Shown here: in pieces, positions 1-16,135 of the stretch
How positions within the stretch are numbered: position 1 is the first letter of the stretch
Layout of the letters: each line of letters starts with the position of its first letter
Assembly (NCBI GenBank): GCA_030622125.1
Contig: JAUXGM010000037.1
Span: forward strand, 1 to 16,359
DNA from: a bacterium
Lineage (GTDB): Bacteria > AUK180
Direction: 5' to 3'
DNA: 16,359 bases
The notes under the pieces: model-generated
Database searches by the model: none
The model's input: only the letters and a program-made list of their open reading frames with translations
What the model was told of the DNA's origin: nothing
Position numbers and translations under genes: made by a program

Positions 1-130
1 ACCCGAAAATCCCTAAATTTTTTGCTTTCAAATTATATCCTTCTATAAATTTTCATTTAATATATTCTACCACTTTAAATTTTAAATTCAAACCTTTTTC
101 ATCTTTTTCTGATTCTTTTATTTTATTCCC

Positions 131-317
131 GTTTCAGTCCAATAGTCGTTTGACTGTTTGACTATGGCAATTTATATTATTTCCCAATATTACTTATTTT
201 TATCTTGTTTCAGTCCAATAGTCGTTTGACTATTTGACTATGGCAATTTATATTATTTTCCAATATTACTTATTTTTATCTTGTTTCAGTCCAATAGTCG
301 TTTGACTGTTTGACTAT
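131..317. repeat. Three 35-bp repeats at 76-bp period (tandem repeat, CRISPR-like)
   Basis: Copies lie at 131-165, 207-241 and 283-317. The middle copy has one change (TGACTATTT for TGACTGTTT). Each begins GTTTCAGTCCAATAGTCG and contains an inverted pair ATAGTC/GACTAT plus the tight hairpin AGTC-GTTT-GACT. Read on the minus strand the unit ends GGACTGAAAC, like the conserved 3' end of many CRISPR repeats. The two 41-bp intervals (166-206, 242-282) differ at a single base, which is typical of a 76-bp tandem duplication and not of independently acquired spacers. No cas gene is in the window. The repeat itself is certain; the CRISPR reading is only possible, as a degenerate or duplicated mini-array. 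Confidence 0.85.
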
Positions 318-454
318 CATTTTTTTAGATGAGTAATGGATAAAATTATTTTTTCACTTTTTAAATTCATTTCAAATTTCATTGAGTAAATTCTGAAACT
401 GTTAACCCCGTAGATATATTTATTCCGTAGATATACTATCAGCGGAACTATCAA

Positions 455-513
455 CGGTGTCAAAATGTTTATCCCTCACCTTTGAAAAAGATGTGGGGTC
501 AACCTTGACACCG
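455..513. repeat. 9-bp inverted repeat with 41-nt loop
   Basis: CGGTGTCAA (455-463) is perfectly complementary to TTGACACCG (505-513). Inside the loop CCTCAC (474-479) can pair with GTGGGG (493-498) with one G-T pair, and TTGAC (505-509) can alternatively pair with GTCAA (498-502). It lies 26 bp beyond the stop of the minus-strand methyltransferase, so it could act as a transcript-end structure, or be the end of a lost mobile element. There is no strong U-tract, so a classical intrinsic terminator is not supported. Confidence 0.5.
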
Positions 514-538
514 ATCATAGTTTAAATGTTTTTAAATT

Positions 539-2044
539 TTATTCGCGATAGATAATAAATTCTTGAACTATTTTTTTATTATATGCTTTCCAACCACCTC
601 TAAAATCTCTACTTGTTACACTAATAAAGTCTTCCATTCGCTTTGAATTGAGTTGTTTTAATAACTTTTTATTATTACCTTCATATTTTATACAATATCC
701 GGAATAAAATGTTGCTTCTTTATTTTTATGATAGATAAAATTAGTTTTTTTATTCATTGGTGAAAATAGTATTTTTTCACCAAAGCTCGTATTTAAACTT
801 TGAGTTCTTCCAAATGCATACCAAGCAACCGGATTTGGTTTCCCGTTATCTCTTTTATCTAAAAACTTTTTTACCGATTGTAAATATTTATATGCAAAAG
901 GAAAGTTAATTTTTAATTCTTCCTCAGGAATAATTATATGTTGGTTATTTACTTTTTTATAGGGAAATAAAATATATTCTTTTATTGATTCATTAGCTTT
1001 TTTAAGTGTTGAAACTTTTATAATTGGTTTTAATATATTCTTTTCTATTTTAACAACATTATTATATTTTGAAGCCAAATAAATATAATCTCCTTTTTCT
1101 TTTTCAATGGGCATTATATAAATCTTGTCAGATAATGTTGTTATGCCAACATGTATTTTTGCAATATCACCAAGCCTTTTTCCATTTTCTGTTATGATTT
1201 TATTAATTGATAGTTGCCAAAATTTTTGCTTTTTTAATTCAGAAAACTTTATAAACCTTTTCCTAAATTTAGTTTTTGTATCTGCCAATTGAAATAAAAA
1301 AAATTCTCTCTTCTTTTTATCAAAAATTACTATGGCACTATAAGTAGTTGCATCTTCAAACAATTGAATATGTCTGTAGTTTGTTATTTGAATTAAATTT
1401 TTATGTGAAATGAAATAATTTCTTAAATCTTTTGCGGTGTCGGTGTGAAAAAAAGTATTTGGTGTTATATAACCGCACTTACCTGTACTTTTTAATAAAC
1501 TTATTGCCAATTCATAAAAAGCAATATAAATATCAGTTGAACCGGATTTACAAAAATGATAATTTTCTTGAATAAATTTACGTTTTTCTAAATCTAAATG
1601 TTGTATTCGAATATAAGGGGGGTTGCCCACGATATAATCAAATTTTTTAAGAACTGAATGAGAATGAAACAAATTATCTTGCAACCCTCCATTATGTAAA
1701 GAATTTACTTTAAAAATATTCCACTTAACATTAATATTATACGGTTCAATGATTTTATTTAGCTTATTGATCGCAGTTAAAATAGCAGATTCATCAATAT
1801 CCCAACCATATACATACGATAAATTATTTTTTATCTCATTTGAATTTTTTGAAAATTCTATAATTCTTTCAACTATTTTTATAAGAAATCTGCCATCTCC
1901 ACAAGCAGGGTCTAAAATTGTTTTTTTTAATATGTTCTCCGTATTATAGCCGATATCATCAAGTATTTTGTTAACAATAAAAAATGGTGTGAAAATTCGT
2001 CCTGTTAATTTTTTTTTGCTATATTTTTTTACAAGTGAACCCAT
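539..2044 (-). CDS. Type II adenine-N6 DNA methyltransferase (gamma class)
   Basis: This 501-residue protein transfers a methyl group from S-adenosylmethionine to adenine N6 in a specific DNA site. Motif X-like GRIFTP lies near residues 15-20, the AdoMet motif I DPACGDGRFL at 45-54, WDIDE (motif II) at 81-85 and the catalytic NPPY at 141-144. That order (X, I, IV, then a target-recognition half) is the TaqI/Eco57I-like gamma arrangement. The C-terminal half contains LGDIAKIHVGITT, typical of the recognition-domain start in this family. The start is supported by GGAAG at 2050-2054. It begins 1 bp after the stop of the upstream endonuclease gene, so the two are translated from one message. The recognition site cannot be read from the sequence. 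Confidence 0.9.
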   Translation of the reverse strand: MGSLVKKYSKKKLTGRIFTPFFIVNKILDDIGYNTENILKKTILDPACGDGRFLIKIVERIIEFSKNSNEIKNNLSYVYGWDIDESAILTAINKLNKIIEPYNINVKWNIFKVNSLHNGGLQDNLFHSHSVLKKFDYIVGNPPYIRIQHLDLEKRKFIQENYHFCKSGSTDIYIAFYELAISLLKSTGKCGYITPNTFFHTDTAKDLRNYFISHKNLIQITNYRHIQLFEDATTYSAIVIFDKKKREFFLFQLADTKTKFRKRFIKFSELKKQKFWQLSINKIITENGKRLGDIAKIHVGITTLSDKIYIMPIEKEKGDYIYLASKYNNVVKIEKNILKPIIKVSTLKKANESIKEYILFPYKKVNNQHIIIPEEELKINFPFAYKYLQSVKKFLDKRDNGKPNPVAWYAFGRTQSLNTSFGEKILFSPMNKKTNFIYHKNKEATFYSGYCIKYEGNNKKLLKQLNSKRMEDFISVTSRDFRGGWKAYNKKIVQEFIIYRE

Positions 2045-2045
2045 A

Positions 2046-2843
2046 TTATCTTCCGTAAGTTTTTCCTTTGGTTAAATTAATAAATGCTTTAATAAAGTTT
2101 TCAAAATTAGAAACTTTTTTTAAATATTCTAATGTGCTTTTGTCAAAATCATTTGTTTCTAAATCTTCTGGTTTAAGAAATTTTACTTTTACTTTTGGTA
2201 ATAATTTTTTATGAAATTTTAATTTATCGATTTCTTCAATATTACCCTTTTCGTATTTTTTAACAATTTTAAAAAATTCGCTTTCATCATCGGTTTCAAT
2301 AAAAGAGATATGTATTATATCCGGTTTATGGTATAAATTTTCTGCTTTATCATTATTTAATTTTAAATACTTTTTAATGTTTTGAGAATTGATATGTTCG
2401 ATTTTAGTAAAAGTTTTTTTGTCGGAGCTGTAATAAGGCATTTTATACTTAAAAACCAACATTTGCCCATATAGGAATTCATTCCTTCTTAAATTTGCAG
2501 TTTCACCGAGCATATTTTCAAAATAATTATTTGAATTTTGCTTATAATTGGAAGTTATAAATTTAAAACCAATACCCGAAATAGGTTTGTTTTTATAAAA
2601 AACTGTAATATCAACATCTTTTGAGTAATACTTCCCTTCTAAATTATATTCTTTTCCGTCACCAATTCCCATTGATTTTATAGTAAAATTATTTTTTTTA
2701 CCCCCAAGTTTTTTTAAAAGAATTTCAGAAATACATTGGTGCATTGGAACAATTTTTTTACTACTTCGTGGATGTGTTGAAAGATACTTTTTGTATCCCT
2801 CTTCCAAACTTTTTCTAAATTTTTCATTTAAAGCAGATTTCAT
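2046..2843 (-). CDS. Probable type II restriction endonuclease
   Basis: 265 residues, first gene of a two-gene unit with the adenine methyltransferase, which is the main reason for the call. The core KDVDITVFYKN...GIGFKF (about residues 75-95) has the shape of a PD-(D/E)XK nuclease: Asp76/Asp78 on one strand, then FK with Lys94 on the next. The usual acidic residue two before the lysine is Gly92, so either another acid (for example Glu69 or Glu114) substitutes or the enzyme is altered. A conserved-looking segment, SNYKQNSNNYFENMLGETAN, follows at about 98-117. From memory, similar segments occur in predicted restriction enzymes; I could not check this. The ATG at 2843 has a strong GGAGG (2850-2854) six bases upstream. 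It should cut the site its partner methylates. Confidence 0.72.
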   Translation of the reverse strand: MKSALNEKFRKSLEEGYKKYLSTHPRSSKKIVPMHQCISEILLKKLGGKKNNFTIKSMGIGDGKEYNLEGKYYSKDVDITVFYKNKPISGIGFKFITSNYKQNSNNYFENMLGETANLRRNEFLYGQMLVFKYKMPYYSSDKKTFTKIEHINSQNIKKYLKLNNDKAENLYHKPDIIHISFIETDDESEFFKIVKKYEKGNIEEIDKLKFHKKLLPKVKVKFLKPEDLETNDFDKSTLEYLKKVSNFENFIKAFINLTKGKTYGR

Positions 2844-2915
2844 ATTGAGCCTCCATATCCATAATCAAAAAATATTTATTATTGCATAGCTTTTTTCTCA
2901 AGCTGCTCTTAATAG

Positions 2916-2944
2916 AGTATAACAAAAACAAATAAAAAAAACAA
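2916..2944 (-). promoter_or_regulatory. Putative promoter of the restriction-modification pair
   Basis: On the minus strand TTGTTT (2939-2944) and TATACT (2916-2921) are separated by 17 bp. Transcription would start near 2909, giving a leader of about 65 nt before the endonuclease ATG. The leader contains a small AGCT/AGCT pairing around 2888-2904. The AT-rich background makes chance matches common, so confidence is modest. Confidence 0.4.
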
Positions 2945-2946
2945 AC

Positions 2947-3306
2947 TCAATCATTATTTTTTTTCTCTGCTTCTTTTTCACCAGTAGCCGATTTATCATA
3001 TACTTCCACTGCATAGAACTCTTCATTCGTTCCTGCTGATATAAAACCATGCGAATTAATTATAATTACACCGGGATTTTCATCTTTATTTATTGTTATT
3101 CTTTTAATAAAATCCAGAAAATTAACCTCTTGTGGAGCAGGATTATTAGTCACATCAATATCAATTACAGCATGAAAATGGTCTGTTCCAGTCGGATGAA
3201 TTTCTCCAAATGTACAGTTTACTCTATTGTAATTATGAGGGTCAGTGGCACAATGTTTTAAAATATTTGAAGGACTTTTTCTGAAAGTTGCAACCCGACC
3301 CTTATT
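2947..3306 (-). pseudogene. Start-less open frame; probable gene remnant
   Basis: Reading minus, this frame begins directly after the TAA of the nucleotidyltransferase gene (3307-3309), in the same frame, and runs 119 codons to TGA at 2947-2949. That is long for a chance frame in DNA this AT-rich. The translation looks protein-like (for example FGEIHPTGTDHFHAVIDID, and later NPGVIIINSHGFISAG). There is no ATG or TTG in it; the only GTG (3151-3153) would give 68 residues and has no Shine-Dalgarno sequence. I read it as the 3' part of a gene that lost its 5' end, or the tail of a longer protein now cut by a stop. I do not recognise the family. A genuine 68-residue protein is the alternative. 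Confidence 0.45.
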
Positions 3307-3858
3307 TTAATTATTTTCAATATTCTTAAAAAGCTCAGAATAATTGCCATCTAATGATTTGTCAAATTCTTTCAACCATTTTAAAATATATTCATGATCA
3401 TAATCCGAGTTCTTTAATAAAATGTTTTTGACATCTTCCATGTCCTTTGCTCTGCCGGATATAATTTTATGAATAATAAGGTCCTCTAAAGAAATAAAAT
3501 TAACTTCCGTTTTCTCAATTTTTACTTTTTTGCTTTTCTCGATAGCTTGCTTTTCATAATATGAAAACGAAAATACAATATCAACCCTTATCTTAGTTTT
3601 TTCGTCAATTAAAGGGAGAATATATGTTTTTTTGACAAATTCCCCCGGTTGCTCAACAAGTACCTTCAGATGTAATTTTTTAGTAACAATTTCAATTATC
3701 TTTTCAAATGCTTCTAAACCTACTCCCAAAGTGATGTCAATATCTTTTGTCATTCTTAGTTCGCCGTATATTAAAACGGCTTGACCGCCAACAACCATAT
3801 ATGGAATGGAATTATTATTGAATTGTTTGGCAATTTCAGAAAGTAATTTTTTAAACAC
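3307..3858 (-). CDS. Nucleotidyltransferase, toxin-antitoxin-like (AbiEii/DUF6036 type)
   Basis: 183 residues with a minimal polymerase-beta-type nucleotidyltransferase core: VVGGQAVLIYG at 22-32 (the glycine pair), then TKDIDITLG with Asp39 and Asp41 as metal ligands, and a third acid at Asp93 in RVDIVF. The helical tail has the segment SLEDLIIHKIISGRAKDMED (about 123-142) seen in this group. Such proteins are often the toxin or NTP-transferring half of two-gene modules that modify tRNA or a partner protein; the target here is unknown. Its ATG overlaps the end of the 65-codon upstream gene by 8 bp, so the two are translationally coupled. In-frame coding-like sequence continues beyond its TAA (see 2947-3306). 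A role in defence is inferred from the neighbouring restriction-modification genes. Confidence 0.8.
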   Translation of the reverse strand: MFKKLLSEIAKQFNNNSIPYMVVGGQAVLIYGELRMTKDIDITLGVGLEAFEKIIEIVTKKLHLKVLVEQPGEFVKKTYILPLIDEKTKIRVDIVFSFSYYEKQAIEKSKKVKIEKTEVNFISLEDLIIHKIISGRAKDMEDVKNILLKNSDYDHEYILKWLKEFDKSLDGNYSELFKNIENN

Positions 3859-4048
3859 TATTGATCTCTTTTACAAATTTAATTAAATGCTCAATACCAT
3901 CAAGAGGGTTTTTTAATGGCAAGATTTTTAAATATATTGCTTCTTCCAGCATTGATTCTAATATAGCATATTTTTCATCAATGGTAAGTTTTTCATTTTG
4001 TATAAAATTCTTCTCAAATTTTTCAAATGTTTTCTTATCTTTTACCAT
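3851..4048 (-). CDS. Small partner protein of the nucleotidyltransferase
   Basis: 65 residues, charged and predicted helical, with the segment LTIDEKYAILESMLEEAIYL followed by KNPLDGIEHLIKF. From memory, small proteins with a similar pattern (helix, then a P-L-D/E-G motif, then a hydrophobic helix) often sit directly before nucleotidyltransferases of this class. By position and size it is the likely antitoxin or partner of the downstream enzyme, whose start lies within its last codons. It has no ribosome binding site: a TATAAT ends 5 nt before its ATG, so the message may start at the start codon. Function is inferred; no DNA-binding motif is evident. Confidence 0.7.
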   Translation of the reverse strand: MVKDKKTFEKFEKNFIQNEKLTIDEKYAILESMLEEAIYLKILPLKNPLDGIEHLIKFVKEINSV

Positions 4049-4053
4049 ATTGA

Positions 4054-4082
4054 ATTATAATATTTTTAATGCTTTTTTTCAA
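4054..4082 (-). promoter_or_regulatory. Promoter for a probably leaderless toxin-antitoxin-like message
   Basis: Minus strand TTGAAA (4077-4082), 17-bp spacer, TATAAT (4054-4059). Only 5 nt separate the -10 box from the ATG at 4048, so initiation at the usual distance would fall on or next to the start codon. No Shine-Dalgarno sequence is present. The -35 box overlaps the last codons of the upstream methyltransferase gene, so the pair would have its own promoter. Confidence 0.6.
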
Positions 4083-5238
4083 GTATAAATTTGTTGAATT
4101 TTTTGTCAACAATAATTCCCGTTTCAGGGGTTTCTTTCCATAAATAGTGTGGATATGCGGTTATTTTATAATCGGAAAATAATAATTTTTCTACTTTCCA
4201 TTTGGTAAAATAGGTTTTTAGTTTTTCTACTGTTGAATTATCGCCCCAGTGTATTACTTTATTTTTTGACATCAAACTTATCCCATAAGGAGGGGTTCGT
4301 TTCCATATTCCATAGCCGCTTTCCACCTCTTCTTCATCGGAATCATAATAGATCGCATCTTTTTCTATAAATGAAAGATAGAATAAAAATGAAAATCTTT
4401 CGGCAGATGATAGTTCACTAATTTCCTGTGAAAGATCTTCTACCTGTTCCGCCCTTTTAAGTAAATGACCAAGTGATTTAATATTTTTCTTATAATCGGA
4501 CATTATACTACTTGTTCCCGTAAAGGTTAAAAACCTTACCGAAAGTAATGGAGTTCCCTCAAATATATTACCTTTTTTTACAAATTTGCAAAGCATTTCC
4601 AAACCTCTGGTAAGAAGCGGAATAATTACTGTTCCGCCATCGCTTAATTGTGTATACCAGGGAATGTCGGGAGTAGCACATGTTACGATTATTGATTCAT
4701 AAGGAGCTTTTTCCTTATAGCCGATCCCACCATCTGCAACAATAACTTTAATATTTTTTCCGGCTCTTTTAATATTTTCTTTCGCCTGGCTCGCAACATT
4801 GGATTCAATTTCGGTAGTTATTATATTATCCTGTCCTACGATTTCCGATATTATCGATGAATTATATCCCGATCCCGTTCCTATTTCCAATACCCTATCG
4901 TTAACGGAAATATCTGCGATATCGATCATATAAGCAACAAGCGACGGCTGAGAACAGGTAGATAAAACATCCTTATCTTTTACTGCAACCACCAATGGTG
5001 TATCTACATAGATCTCTTTTAAAAGTTCCTCTGCCGGATTGTCATAATCAAACTTTTTGAAGCTCCATTCATTTTTTTTCTCATCGCAAAACCATATTTT
5101 AGGAATGAAAAAGTGCCTATAAATTTTAGTAATTGCCTGATAAGTATTAGGTTTTATCTTCCTTTTAAATGCAGAAGCGAACTTCTTTTGAACTTCATAA
5201 TCCAATTTTTTTTTGTAATTCTCAATTATTTGCTCCAT
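4066..5238 (-). CDS. Protein-L-isoaspartate O-methyltransferase-like enzyme, long form
   Basis: 390 residues against about 210 for ordinary Pcm. The central PCMT fold is clear: STCSQPSLVAYM (93-104, the SQP substrate motif), VLEIGTGSGYNSS (116-128, AdoMet loop), TTEIE (141-145), ADGGIG (168-173) and IPWYTQLSDGGTVIIPL (192-208). The family transfers methyl from AdoMet to isoaspartyl carboxylates in damaged proteins. About 70 residues precede this core and 180 follow it, which resembles methyltransferases tied to peptide-modification systems (FxLD or ATP-grasp types); no precursor peptide or maturase is visible here, so repair or another carboxyl methylation is equally possible. The ATG has GAGG (minus strand, 5244-5247) five bases upstream. 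It diverges from the branching-enzyme gene through a shared promoter region. Confidence 0.82.
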   Translation of the reverse strand: MEQIIENYKKKLDYEVQKKFASAFKRKIKPNTYQAITKIYRHFFIPKIWFCDEKKNEWSFKKFDYDNPAEELLKEIYVDTPLVVAVKDKDVLSTCSQPSLVAYMIDIADISVNDRVLEIGTGSGYNSSIISEIVGQDNIITTEIESNVASQAKENIKRAGKNIKVIVADGGIGYKEKAPYESIIVTCATPDIPWYTQLSDGGTVIIPLLTRGLEMLCKFVKKGNIFEGTPLLSVRFLTFTGTSSIMSDYKKNIKSLGHLLKRAEQVEDLSQEISELSSAERFSFLFYLSFIEKDAIYYDSDEEEVESGYGIWKRTPPYGISLMSKNKVIHWGDNSTVEKLKTYFTKWKVEKLLFSDYKITAYPHYLWKETPETGIIVDKKFNKFILEKKH

Positions 5239-12891: not shown

Positions 12892-13659
12892 ATGAAAAAG
12901 AGAATTGCTTTGATCTTGATTTTATTATTAGCGTTTTTAGGTTGCAAAAACAGTGGCAAGGAAGAGGCTGTCGAAAGAAAATTTACTACCGAAAAAACAA
13001 TGGAGCAGCAGAGCACCGGAACACCGGAGAAAAAAGAAAAAACATTAGCATCAACACCAAACATGGAACAAAATACAATTGACAATGGACAATTGACAAT
13101 GGACAATGAAAAAAAAGAAATAAGAAGTAAAGAAGGTGTCGAAAAAGAAAAAAAGATAGAAAGCATACCAAAAAACTACAAAACAAAGATCACAAATATT
13201 ACCAAAGGGGTTGATAATTATGAAGTCACATTTGACAATCTGATCGTAGTAAAAAATGTAAGAATAGAAAATAATCATTTGATCTTTCCTTATTCTACAT
13301 CGGGAGAGAGAAAATATTATTTTATCTGGGCAAATGAAAAAGAATTATTGGCAAAGTTTTACACGGAAATTTTAAATAATAAAGTTTCCTCTTACCAGGG
13401 AAAACCCGTAATTACAGGAATAAAGATCAAAAAATACGAAAGCAGCAGTTTAAAAGGCTGGGCGGATGTTGAACTTGATAATGAATTTACGGTAAAAAGT
13501 ATCCCAATCTTTATGGGTGGTAGATACAATAAAAATAATATCGGGGAACCCGCTGTAAAAGTCGATGGAAAATATGTTCCGATGGTAACATTTAAAGATA
13601 AAATATGGAAAAACGAATTACAGGAAGCAATATTCAAAAAATATTCATCATTGGAATAG
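12892..13659 (+). CDS. Lipoprotein with two SpoVG-like domains
   Basis: 255 residues. The N-terminus is a lipoprotein signal with lipobox AFLGC, Cys18 being the lipid-modified residue, so the mature protein should be tethered outside the cytoplasm. Residues about 20-95 are a charged, low-complexity linker that includes NTIDNGQLTMDNEKKE, encoded by a 14-bp DNA repeat. Two similar domains follow: 99-161 (YEVTFDNLIVVKNVRI ... ELLAKFYTEIL) and 173-251 (ADVELDNEFTVKSIPI ... ELQEAIFKKY). Both match the order of SpoVG (I-x-I strand, D-[ND/E]-x-hydrophobic-V-[KH]-[DNS]-h-x-I, a loop, then a C-terminal helix). SpoVG is normally a single-domain cytoplasmic nucleic-acid-binding protein. The resemblance is by eye. 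An AGGAG sequence lies about seven bases before the ATG. Confidence 0.7.
   Translation: MKKRIALILILLLAFLGCKNSGKEEAVERKFTTEKTMEQQSTGTPEKKEKTLASTPNMEQNTIDNGQLTMDNEKKEIRSKEGVEKEKKIESIPKNYKTKITNITKGVDNYEVTFDNLIVVKNVRIENNHLIFPYSTSGERKYYFIWANEKELLAKFYTEILNNKVSSYQGKPVITGIKIKKYESSSLKGWADVELDNEFTVKSIPIFMGGRYNKNNIGEPAVKVDGKYVPMVTFKDKIWKNELQEAIFKKYSSLE
13075..13110 (+). repeat. Dispersed-type 14-bp repeat embedded in a coding region
   Basis: ACAATTGACAATGG occurs at 13075-13088 and 13089-13102 and starts a third copy (ACAATG) at 13103, followed by an A-rich run. Tracts built from ACAATTG and ACAATGG are, as I recall, a common class of intergenic repeats in several bacterial groups. Here the tract is translated as part of the lipoprotein linker without breaking the frame. 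Confidence 0.7.
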
Positions 13660-14090
13660 TTTTTTTTCTTTTTACAGCTGTTATTCAGGGAAAGGAAAGC
13701 TTTTTACATGAAAAAAAACCGTTTATACGGTTGGCTCAATCACTTATTTTACCGGGATGGGGACAATTTTCAAATAAAAAATATCTGAAATCATCCATCT
13801 TTTTTTCTACAGCAGTAATTAGTGTTTTTGCAACAATGAATAGCTACAACTCATTAGATGATTCCTTCAATAATTATAATAGAGAAATGGAATTGGGAAA
13901 TATTACTTATGCAAATGAACTTTATGATAAGTATAAAAATAAATTTACACTTCATCAATATCTGATAACTACCGTAATTATTTTCTGGGGGTTAAATTCA
14001 TTGGATGCCTTTTTTGATGCCCATTTTCTTAAGATAAATATTAAGAAAGACAATGAGAACCTAAAATTGTATATTGAAAAAGAGTTTTAA
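13605..14090 (+). CDS. Small membrane protein with PGWGQ motif (DUF5683-like)
   Basis: 161 residues. A signal or membrane helix spans about 12-28, then RLAQSLILPGWGQFSNKKYL (42-61), a motif seen in DUF5683-like and related small membrane proteins of unknown function, followed by hydrophobic stretches at about 64-78 and 116-134. The ATG at 13605 lies 55 bp inside the lipoprotein gene in another frame with no good ribosome site; there is no later ATG before the PGWGQ motif, so this start or a nearby non-ATG codon must be used. Its TAA shares a base with the next ATG. The family assignment rests on the short motif only, so function is unknown. Confidence 0.68.
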   Translation: MEKRITGSNIQKIFIIGIVFFLFTAVIQGKESFLHEKKPFIRLAQSLILPGWGQFSNKKYLKSSIFFSTAVISVFATMNSYNSLDDSFNNYNREMELGNITYANELYDKYKNKFTLHQYLITTVIIFWGLNSLDAFFDAHFLKINIKKDNENLKLYIEKEF

Positions 14091-16135
14091 TGTTTAGATT
14101 CATTCACTTCAGCGATACACATCTTGGTGATCATTTTCCTGATAACCGAAAAGCAAATTTGGATGATTATCGTGGAAAGGATTATTTTGAAAATTATTTT
14201 CGGATTATTGATTTTATTCTTCACAATCATAAGAATATCGATTTCATTATCCATACCGGAGATTTTTTTGACAGCGACGATCCTTCCCTTTTTGTGCAAG
14301 AACTTGCATTAAAGCCACTTCAAAAAATTGATAAATTGGGAATACCCTTTTTTTTACTGAAAGGTAATCATGAAAGAACCGGAATACCGAAAATATTTTA
14401 TAATTCTATAAAAAACTTGATAGTTTTTAATTCACCTCAATTTAAAAAGATAGAGATTGGAAAAGCAAAAATAACCATTACGGGCATTCCGTATCTAAAA
14501 AAGAAAGAAGGAAAATTATCGGCATTATTTAAAAGAACACTTGAAGAGACAAAAATAGAGGAGAATAGAGGCGATTTTAACATCTTGATGGCACATCAAT
14601 TATTGGAAGGGGCTGCTGTGGGCCCGGATGGATATAGATTTAGACCTTATTCTAAGGTTTTAACACAAGCGGCAATACCTGATTTTTTTGATTATGTTTC
14701 TGTCGGACATATCCATCGTCATCAGGTAGTGAGAAATAAATATACAAGAAAGAACAACATATTTATATCGGGTTCTCAGGAAATGATCACCTTTTCGGAG
14801 ATCGGTGAAAGAAAAGGTTTTTACTATGTAACTGTAAGTGATAACAGACGAATTAACGCTAAATTCATTTCCTTACCCGTACGTCCAATGTTTGAATTTA
14901 CATTAGACCTTGCAAATAAAAGTAGAAAGGAATTATTAAAATTGATGAATGAAACCATAGATAGGATACCTGAAAATGGTTATGGAAAAATACGGCTTGA
15001 TGGAAAAATTCCAAAGGCATTCTTTAAAGAACTTCCGCTTGATAAATGCAGAAAGAAAGCATATAAATGCCATTTTTCTTTTAAGCATCTCAAGATAATC
15101 GGAGATGATTCTAATATAATTATTCTTCCGGATCATGATAATAAGGGGATGAAAGGTCTCTTACTCAATTTAGATATTACCTCTTCAAAATTAAGAAAAA
15201 TACCAAAAGAAGCGGGGATATATTTTTATAAAGACAAAGAAGATAAGGTAATTTATATAGGCAGAAGCAAAAATATATACAGAACAATACAAAATAATAT
15301 AAAAAACAGTATTTTCTCTTTAAGTCATCGAGAACTGTTGGAAAAAATACATACCATTGAATATCAATTTGAAGAAAATGAACTTTTTGCGATACTCGAT
15401 GAGATCGGACTGAAAAAACAATTTCGTCCGATTTACAACAGAAAAATATTGTTTTCTAAAGAATATTCCTATCTTACTCTAAAAATTAAAAACGGACTGC
15501 CCTATTTTTCCATAATCTCAAGTGTCAACGGAAATGAAAAACATTTACTTGGTCCGCTTATTAACGGGAATGAATTGGAAAGAACAGTATTAATATTAAA
15601 AAATAAACTGAATTTCCCTACTTGTGATGGAAATTTTTACAATTCACCGAATCAATGCATCAAATATGTTTCAAATAAATGTATCGCTCCCTGTAAAAGT
15701 AAAAAGTCGGCAAGAAGATACAGAAAATTGTTCTATGATTTCTTTACATCGCCCTTATTTATCTTAGAAAAGATAGTTAGTCGAACAAATGAATCTAAGG
15801 TAGGTCGCATAAAGGAATTAATTAAACAAATAACGGAAATAAAAAAGATATTGGCTCTTAATGGTATCTATACTATGAAAAACTATGAAGAAATTAATTC
15901 TACACTGCTTATTTTAAAAAAAGGCAGAATTATGCACAGTGAATCGATAAAAGAACCAAAAATTTCAGAGGCAAATATACAAAGATACAAAAAATTACTT
16001 AATTCCTATAATGTTCCCAAATTTCTAACCCCGAAAGAATTCGAGGACGGACTCATTCTGTTGAAGAATATAGAAAACAAAAACCTAATTTCGATTTTTG
16101 CAAAGTTTCAGAAACATATTGGATTTTACTTGTAA
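14090..16135 (+). CDS. SbcD/Mre11 phosphoesterase fused to UvrC-type GIY-YIG region
   Basis: 681 residues in one unbroken frame. The N-terminal half is an SbcD/Mre11-type nuclease with all metal-binding motifs: FSDTHLGD (Asp9, His11), HTGDFFD (Asp58), KGNHE (Asn93, His94), MAHQ (His169) and GHIHRH (His207, His209), then a cap-like region to about 360. From about 368 it matches the start of UvrC: IPKEAGIYFY and VIYIGRSKN (GIY 376-378, YIG 389-391), EENELFAIL (Glu431), FRPIYN (Asn450), and four cysteines (512, 523, 531, 535) spaced like the Fe-S cluster ligands of UvrC. The catalytic arginine position reads Thr399, with Arg398 next to it. A helical tail of 140 residues follows. There is no helix-hairpin-helix or RNase H half of UvrC and no SbcC in the window. 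A DNA-end or repair nuclease is likely. Confidence 0.85.
   Translation: MFRFIHFSDTHLGDHFPDNRKANLDDYRGKDYFENYFRIIDFILHNHKNIDFIIHTGDFFDSDDPSLFVQELALKPLQKIDKLGIPFFLLKGNHERTGIPKIFYNSIKNLIVFNSPQFKKIEIGKAKITITGIPYLKKKEGKLSALFKRTLEETKIEENRGDFNILMAHQLLEGAAVGPDGYRFRPYSKVLTQAAIPDFFDYVSVGHIHRHQVVRNKYTRKNNIFISGSQEMITFSEIGERKGFYYVTVSDNRRINAKFISLPVRPMFEFTLDLANKSRKELLKLMNETIDRIPENGYGKIRLDGKIPKAFFKELPLDKCRKKAYKCHFSFKHLKIIGDDSNIIILPDHDNKGMKGLLLNLDITSSKLRKIPKEAGIYFYKDKEDKVIYIGRSKNIYRTIQNNIKNSIFSLSHRELLEKIHTIEYQFEENELFAILDEIGLKKQFRPIYNRKILFSKEYSYLTLKIKNGLPYFSIISSVNGNEKHLLGPLINGNELERTVLILKNKLNFPTCDGNFYNSPNQCIKYVSNKCIAPCKSKKSARRYRKLFYDFFTSPLFILEKIVSRTNESKVGRIKELIKQITEIKKILALNGIYTMKNYEEINSTLLILKKGRIMHSESIKEPKISEANIQRYKKLLNSYNVPKFLTPKEFEDGLILLKNIENKNLISIFAKFQKHIGFYL

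Follow-up and report, generated by a model that had tools for sequence, protein, structure and literature searches.

The window, which here means the whole analysed stretch of 16,359 nucleotides of bacterial DNA, carries at positions 14090-16135 of the forward strand one ATG-started frame of 681 amino acids, whose start codon overlaps the stop codon of an upstream DUF5683 gene by a single base (TAATG). This frame is a real fusion that joins an Mre11/SbcD-type phosphoesterase to the GIY-YIG/Cys4 front of UvrC (Table 1). An earlier note on this DNA had described it as an SbcD/Mre11-UvrC fusion, a description that is borne out by profiles, PDB matches and predicted folds. In Pfam, residues 2-210 match Metallophos (E 6.5e-18) and residues 375-449 match GIY-YIG with an E-value of 9e-4 and a score of 20.0 bits, which slightly misses the cut-off of 22.6 bits. 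In NCBIfam, the first half of the protein matches Mre11_Sulfo (E 1e-27), and residues 366-547 match UvrC models with E-values down to 2e-23. Sequence searches of the PDB return archaeal and bacterial Mre11/SbcD proteins for residues 1-302 and the N-terminal domain of UvrC (1yd6) for residues 364-456. The profiles thereby recover a GIY-YIG domain in the C-terminal half and, together with the 1yd6 fold, uphold the proposal that GIY-YIG and Cys4 follow each other in the order found in UvrC.

Table 1. Features of the fusion gene and of its upstream neighbours in the window
Feature	Position	Strand	Basis
Lipoprotein-like gene, C-terminal SpoVG domain	12892..13659	+	neighbour in all four relatives; SpoVG E 5.5e-9
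DUF5683 gene upstream of the fusion	13605..14090	+	precedes the fusion in G002 and G003 too
Mre11/SbcD-like calcineurin-type phosphoesterase domain, residues 1-265	14090..14884	+	Metallophos, Mre11_Sulfo, PDB, fold, ligands
Mre11-type cap domain, residues 266-337	14885..15100	+	model aligns with Mre11/SbcD nuclease and cap structures to residue 332-335
Linker, about residues 338-364	15101..15181	+	low model confidence, pLDDT < 50 at 331-361
UvrC-type GIY-YIG domain, residues 365-460	15182..15469	+	profiles, alignment, PDB match, fold
Codon 399, Thr in the catalytic Arg slot; Arg at 398	15284..15286	+	GIY-YIG alignment
UvrC-type Cys4 box, C512, C523, C531, C535	15605..15709	+	alignments
C-terminal tail, poorly conserved	15710..16132	+	profile searches, identity, pLDDT

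The AlphaFold2 model of the fusion has good confidence across most of residues 1-310, and its residues 1-332 align with the nuclease and cap domains of MjMre11 (Z 29.1 over 292 residues, rmsd 3.5, 24% identity), while the modelled GIY-YIG domain aligns with UvrC 1yd6 (Z 16.3 over 94 residues, rmsd 1.4). Confidence in the full-length model is low past about residue 450, and a separate model of the C-terminal half supports the GIY-YIG domain only; no claim is therefore made for the tail, whose residues 541-681 show no recognised fold. The phosphoesterase ligands D9, H11, D58, N93, H94, H169, H207 and H209 are all intact, and those listed in the earlier note (Asp9, His11, Asp58, Asn93, His169, His207 and His209) are conserved across the five fusions of the family and the relatives. 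The GIY-YIG half retains G376-I-Y, Y389-I-G, E438 and N450. An E-to-D change in its metal-binding Glu was considered and ruled out by the alignment, in which E438 is the conserved Glu. Neither an RNase H-like second nuclease nor an HhH region is matched in Pfam or NCBIfam, the chain stopping at residue 681, and Pfam detects no UVR motif in the diverging tail, the region in which split partners elsewhere give UVR-like matches (E about 1e-3).

The component families are known, and their combination, an SbcD-type phosphoesterase with GIY-YIG, was not found described. The fusion shares with SbcD/Mre11 the phosphoesterase fold, the motifs D, H, D, N/H, H and HxH, and the cap, but it scores below the SbcD cut-off of TIGR00619 (53.9 versus 77.65 bits) and differs from SbcCD/Mre11-Rad50 in belonging to a separate clade, in having no detected SbcC and in carrying a GIY-YIG module after the cap. 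With UvrC it has in common the order and fold of GIY-YIG followed by Cys4, but it lacks the RNase H-like nuclease and a detected UVR motif, its catalytic Arg is replaced, and an ordinary UvrC is encoded separately in the same genome. Compared with Cho of the E. coli type, the fusion reaches 28 bits where the NCBIfam Cho cut-off is 367 bits, with a match that ends at residue 488. The Cho-like and Cho-like+Exo proteins (PRK07883) share GIY-YIG and C4 with it, the +Exo forms being also fused to a nuclease; a UVR-like motif occurs in the split partners, and residues 363-545 of the fusion score 99 bits against PRK07883.1-4. The Cho-like+Exo (DEDD-GIY-YIG) proteins, however, bear an N-terminal DnaQ exonuclease where the fusion has its Metallophos/Mre11-type domain. 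No phosphoesterase-GIY-YIG form appears in the GIY-YIG domain table of Dunin-Horkawicz 2006 (PMC1564403), and the searched literature, whose coverage leaves out most subscription papers, contained no phosphoesterase/SbcD-GIY-YIG fusion, in agreement with the earlier note, which knew of no described SbcD partner for GIY-YIG.

The fusion occurs in one open frame in all five genomes of its family, which represent four genera, with full-length identities of 32-41%, and it is absent from two genomes of a sister family in the same class. The earlier note had named a stop or frameshift within residues 350-370 as evidence against a fusion; none of the five genomes has one. Fragmentation of the source genome into 192 contigs would favour an assembly or annotation artefact uniting two genes; nevertheless, the one-frame fusion has been assembled independently in the four other genomes, and separate fusions occur elsewhere. 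Because the same fusion recurs throughout the family, it does not represent an assembly chimera, and an artefact of either kind is extremely improbable. Both halves are under purifying selection in the one species pair compared, the closely related G001 and G004, with dN/dS values of 0.045 for the phosphoesterase and 0.081 for GIY-YIG. Pairwise identity within the family is 47% in the phosphoesterase, about 27% in the GIY region and 22% in the tail, and the Cys4 box is invariant in all five members, even where GIY-YIG has decayed.

The catalytic Arg of the GIY-YIG domain was scored in an alignment of 55 UvrC-type GIY-YIG domains. It is kept in every UvrC (22/22), every DnaQ-GIY-YIG protein (14/14), every separate partner gene (9/9) and every fusion from outside the family (5/5), so that all 28 of the 28 partner domains outside the family possess it. 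Within the family, the slot is occupied by Thr399 in the window, by Ala in G001 and G004, and by Met in G003, which is also devoid of the Tyr of both half-motifs and of the Asn. The Arg is thus lost from four of the five family proteins, which span three of the four genera, but not from G002 (L005), whose GIY-YIG residue set is complete. On these residues, weak or no incision is predicted for the GIY-YIG half of the window fusion, and the single-strand incision that the earlier note had assigned to this half is not supported for the window copy. In R.Eco29kI, substitution of the corresponding Arg (R104A) strongly reduces cleavage without abolishing it, DNA binding being largely retained (PMC1952068), and relatives of R.Hpy188I have the Arg relocated to a non-homologous position (PMC2630997). 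Owing to such residual activity of Arg mutants, to the migration of the Arg and to the presence of Arg398 beside the slot, some incision by this half is still conceivable.

Among 386 genomes sampled, a small minority contain the phosphoesterase subfamily by profile search, and the profile identifies at least 80 loci in named metagenome-assembled genomes from many phyla. Among the matches listed, a UvrC-type GIY-YIG domain is fused or adjoining in 25 of 80 loci, consisting of four fusions, seven adjacent genes (five downstream and two on the opposite strand) and 14 DnaQ-GIY-YIG genes directly upstream. The same architecture was recovered in every other genome of the family, as the earlier note had suggested checking, and the pairing extends more widely, over many phyla. 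Outside the window family, fused forms are represented by four planctomycete/Phycisphaerae loci and also by G261 (L048). A GIY-YIG gene comes directly downstream in the same orientation, often with an overlap, in G064 (L007), G213, G216/L066, L061, L070, L109 and L116, and adjoins on the opposite strand in L078 and L095. The upstream DnaQ-GIY-YIG genes encode proteins of about 590 aa in Aminicenantes, Desulfobacterales, WOR-3, Myxococcota, Nitrospiraceae and others, and their stop overlaps the phosphoesterase start in 10 of the 14 loci. The other loci of the 80 have no GIY-YIG gene in the stretch examined, several of these stretches being truncated. By our own estimate, chance adjacency of a few-copy gene in a 3000-gene genome is of the order of 0.1-0.3%. 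The unfused phosphoesterase relatives mostly end shortly past the cap, in frames of about 340-380 aa. Apart from GIY-YIG genes, few neighbours are conserved, and the two largest neighbour clusters, without a phosphoesterase or GIY-YIG match, looked like shadows of overlapping frames. In four Desulfobacterales loci (L074, L089, L094 and L102), a divergent gene for a dynamin-like GTPase lies on the minus strand upstream of the DnaQ-GIY-YIG/phosphoesterase pair. At L047 482-1495 (-) in G296, a phosphoesterase of the window-fusion clade is interrupted by TGA.

Genes for XPD/DinG-type helicases are located near the phosphoesterase in L075, L080, L084, L115, L121 and L067, and genes for DinB polymerases in L128, L083 and L067. 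Helicase, DnaQ-GIY-YIG and Mre11-clade phosphoesterase form an apparent three-gene operon in L075 (positions 1-5032) and also in L080, L084, L115 and L121; this operon looks like an undescribed repair module, and the N-terminus of the L075 helicase has a weak PD-(D/E)XK match. Compared with the fusion, the operon (L075, L080, L115) shares the phosphoesterase clade and a UvrC-type GIY-YIG domain but keeps the parts in separate genes and adds DnaQ and a helicase, and its DnaQ forms did not align in the Cys4 box. Repeated linkage of this kind suggests that the two parts are partners in DNA repair, in an association so far undescribed. A further helicase-UvrC linkage is seen in G064, where the gene of a DnaQ-DinG fusion helicase (L141 790-5465) overlaps the start of ordinary uvrC.

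In the phosphoesterase tree, the subfamily forms one clade apart from ordinary SbcD with a support of 100, within which the window family constitutes a clade (100) and the planctomycete fusions another (95), while the G261 fusion falls within a group (support 99) whose other phosphoesterase genes are unfused. This branching implies at least two fusion events; the tree was built by a quick method, and exact placement is unsure given the long branches. In the GIY-YIG tree, the DnaQ-GIY-YIG domains stand apart at 100/100 and the split partners group with L048 at 93/95; the grouping that would bear on a descent of the window's GIY-YIG half from split partner genes, that of the 18 partner and fused domains, has a support of 31/30 only.

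Mre11/SbcD nucleases are generally thought to work through the Rad50/SbcC ATPase. The repair genes of the source genome were surveyed by single family searches, in which no SbcC was found, the best TIGR00618 match being one of 28 bits to a 1206-aa frame of SMC size. The four other family genomes also yielded no SbcC, and the best TIGR00618 matches are mainly SMC-sized frames (1189-1206 aa, source genome included). SbcC is likely absent from the source genome, a missed gene being possible because this genome is 96% complete. A search with the fusion as query found no second SbcD and no Cho in the source genome. The genome encodes UvrB (959 bits), an ordinary UvrC of 529 aa and, not near the fusion, an XPD/DinG-type helicase in an 829-aa ORF on contig C25. 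Among the genes that the earlier note had proposed to look for, uvrC is accordingly present, while sbcC and cho were not found; its description of a fusion that does without SbcC and without the second UvrC nuclease stands, with no SbcC found in genome or family and no match for such a nuclease. The ordinary UvrC gene (L002 472-2061 (-), C24) has a GTG start and no recognisable HhH region at its end, and shows no clear continuation in another frame.

We propose, with a probability of roughly 0.5, that the fusion is an Mre11-type repair nuclease that works independently of SbcC, with a GIY-YIG/Cys4 half that mainly targets it to DNA or repair complexes. According to this proposal, the protein would act in chromosomal DNA-damage repair as a metal-dependent DNA nuclease of the Mre11 type, without SbcC, and would have covalently joined a Cho-like (GIY-YIG and Cys4) partner module that is encoded by a next-door gene in other bacteria. 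In the intact two-part arrangement, a nick made by the Cho-like nuclease close to a lesion or branched structure would expose a strand for the phosphoesterase to degrade or trim; in those operons that also encode them, the DnaQ exonuclease domain and the XPD/DinG-type helicase may assist strand removal. In the window lineage, the GIY-YIG half would mainly act in binding or targeting, either of damaged or branched DNA or of a repair complex, a role suggested by the fully kept phosphoesterase site and the loss of the GIY-YIG catalytic Arg. Counting against the repair proposal, the gene of the window family lies beside DUF5683 and SpoVG-type lipoprotein genes, not beside repair genes; the SpoVG domain is normally that of a cytoplasmic nucleic-acid-binding regulator.

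The two halves could instead form, as the earlier note envisaged, an enzyme with two nucleases in which both sites cut; the role of the Arg would then be taken by R398 or another residue. GIY, YIG, Glu438, Asn450 and Cys4 are intact in the window fusion, the Arg is kept in G002 and in all extra-family fusions, and it can move in R.Hpy188I relatives (PMC2630997). However, the residue is conserved in all extra-family domains examined, whereas four family members have Thr (window), Ala (G001/G004) or Met (G003, where both half-motif Tyr residues have also gone) in its place, and these replacements make a doubly active enzyme rather unlikely. Loss could also have gone further, leaving the GIY-YIG half as a decaying vestige of a formerly useful partner, with only the phosphoesterase mattering in the window family. 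The lower identity of the GIY region and tail (about 27% and 22%, against 47%) and the stepwise loss of catalytic residues are what such decay would produce, but the invariant Cys4 box, the frame kept in four genera and the dN/dS of 0.081 in the GIY-YIG half (G001 versus G004) argue otherwise, and we regard a mere remnant as quite unlikely.

A role of the pair in anti-phage or anti-plasmid defence, in place of housekeeping repair, is more improbable still. Nuclease-helicase sets are common in defence, and the helicase beside some relatives scores 409 bits against the type-IV DinG model of PADLOC; nevertheless, the fusion, the split pair and the L075 phosphoesterase have no PADLOC match at E 0.001, DinB genes are neighbours elsewhere, and each of the five family genomes has the fusion among conserved neighbours, unlike typical defence islands.

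The proposal of an SbcC-independent repair nuclease with a targeting GIY-YIG half allows a broader and more tentative extension, in which an SbcC-free Mre11-clade nuclease and a Cho-like or DnaQ-Cho-like GIY-YIG protein, often with an XPD/DinG-type helicase, might constitute a widespread undescribed repair machine. Such a machine would provide a nick-and-resect pathway parallel to UvrABC and SbcCD, and the window family would represent its fused form, the incision subunit having turned into a DNA-targeting module. A multi-phylum clade that repeatedly pairs or fuses with a UvrC-type nuclease, in some genomes without a detected SbcC, suggests that Mre11-type enzymes also take part in a pathway of the excision type. 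This role can be tested on the split pair (G064, Neomarinimicrobiota, Riflebacteria) and on the DnaQ/helicase operons, and the window family offers a natural experiment in its fusions with and without the catalytic GIY-YIG Arg.

Elsewhere in the window, a gene for an Eco57I-type DNA methyltransferase (539-2843, minus strand) comes right after a 265-aa gene without a Pfam match, which is possibly its restriction endonuclease. Additionally, a gene at 3307-3858 on the minus strand encodes a DUF6036/AbiEii-like nucleotidyltransferase, a possible toxin of a type IV toxin-antitoxin pair.
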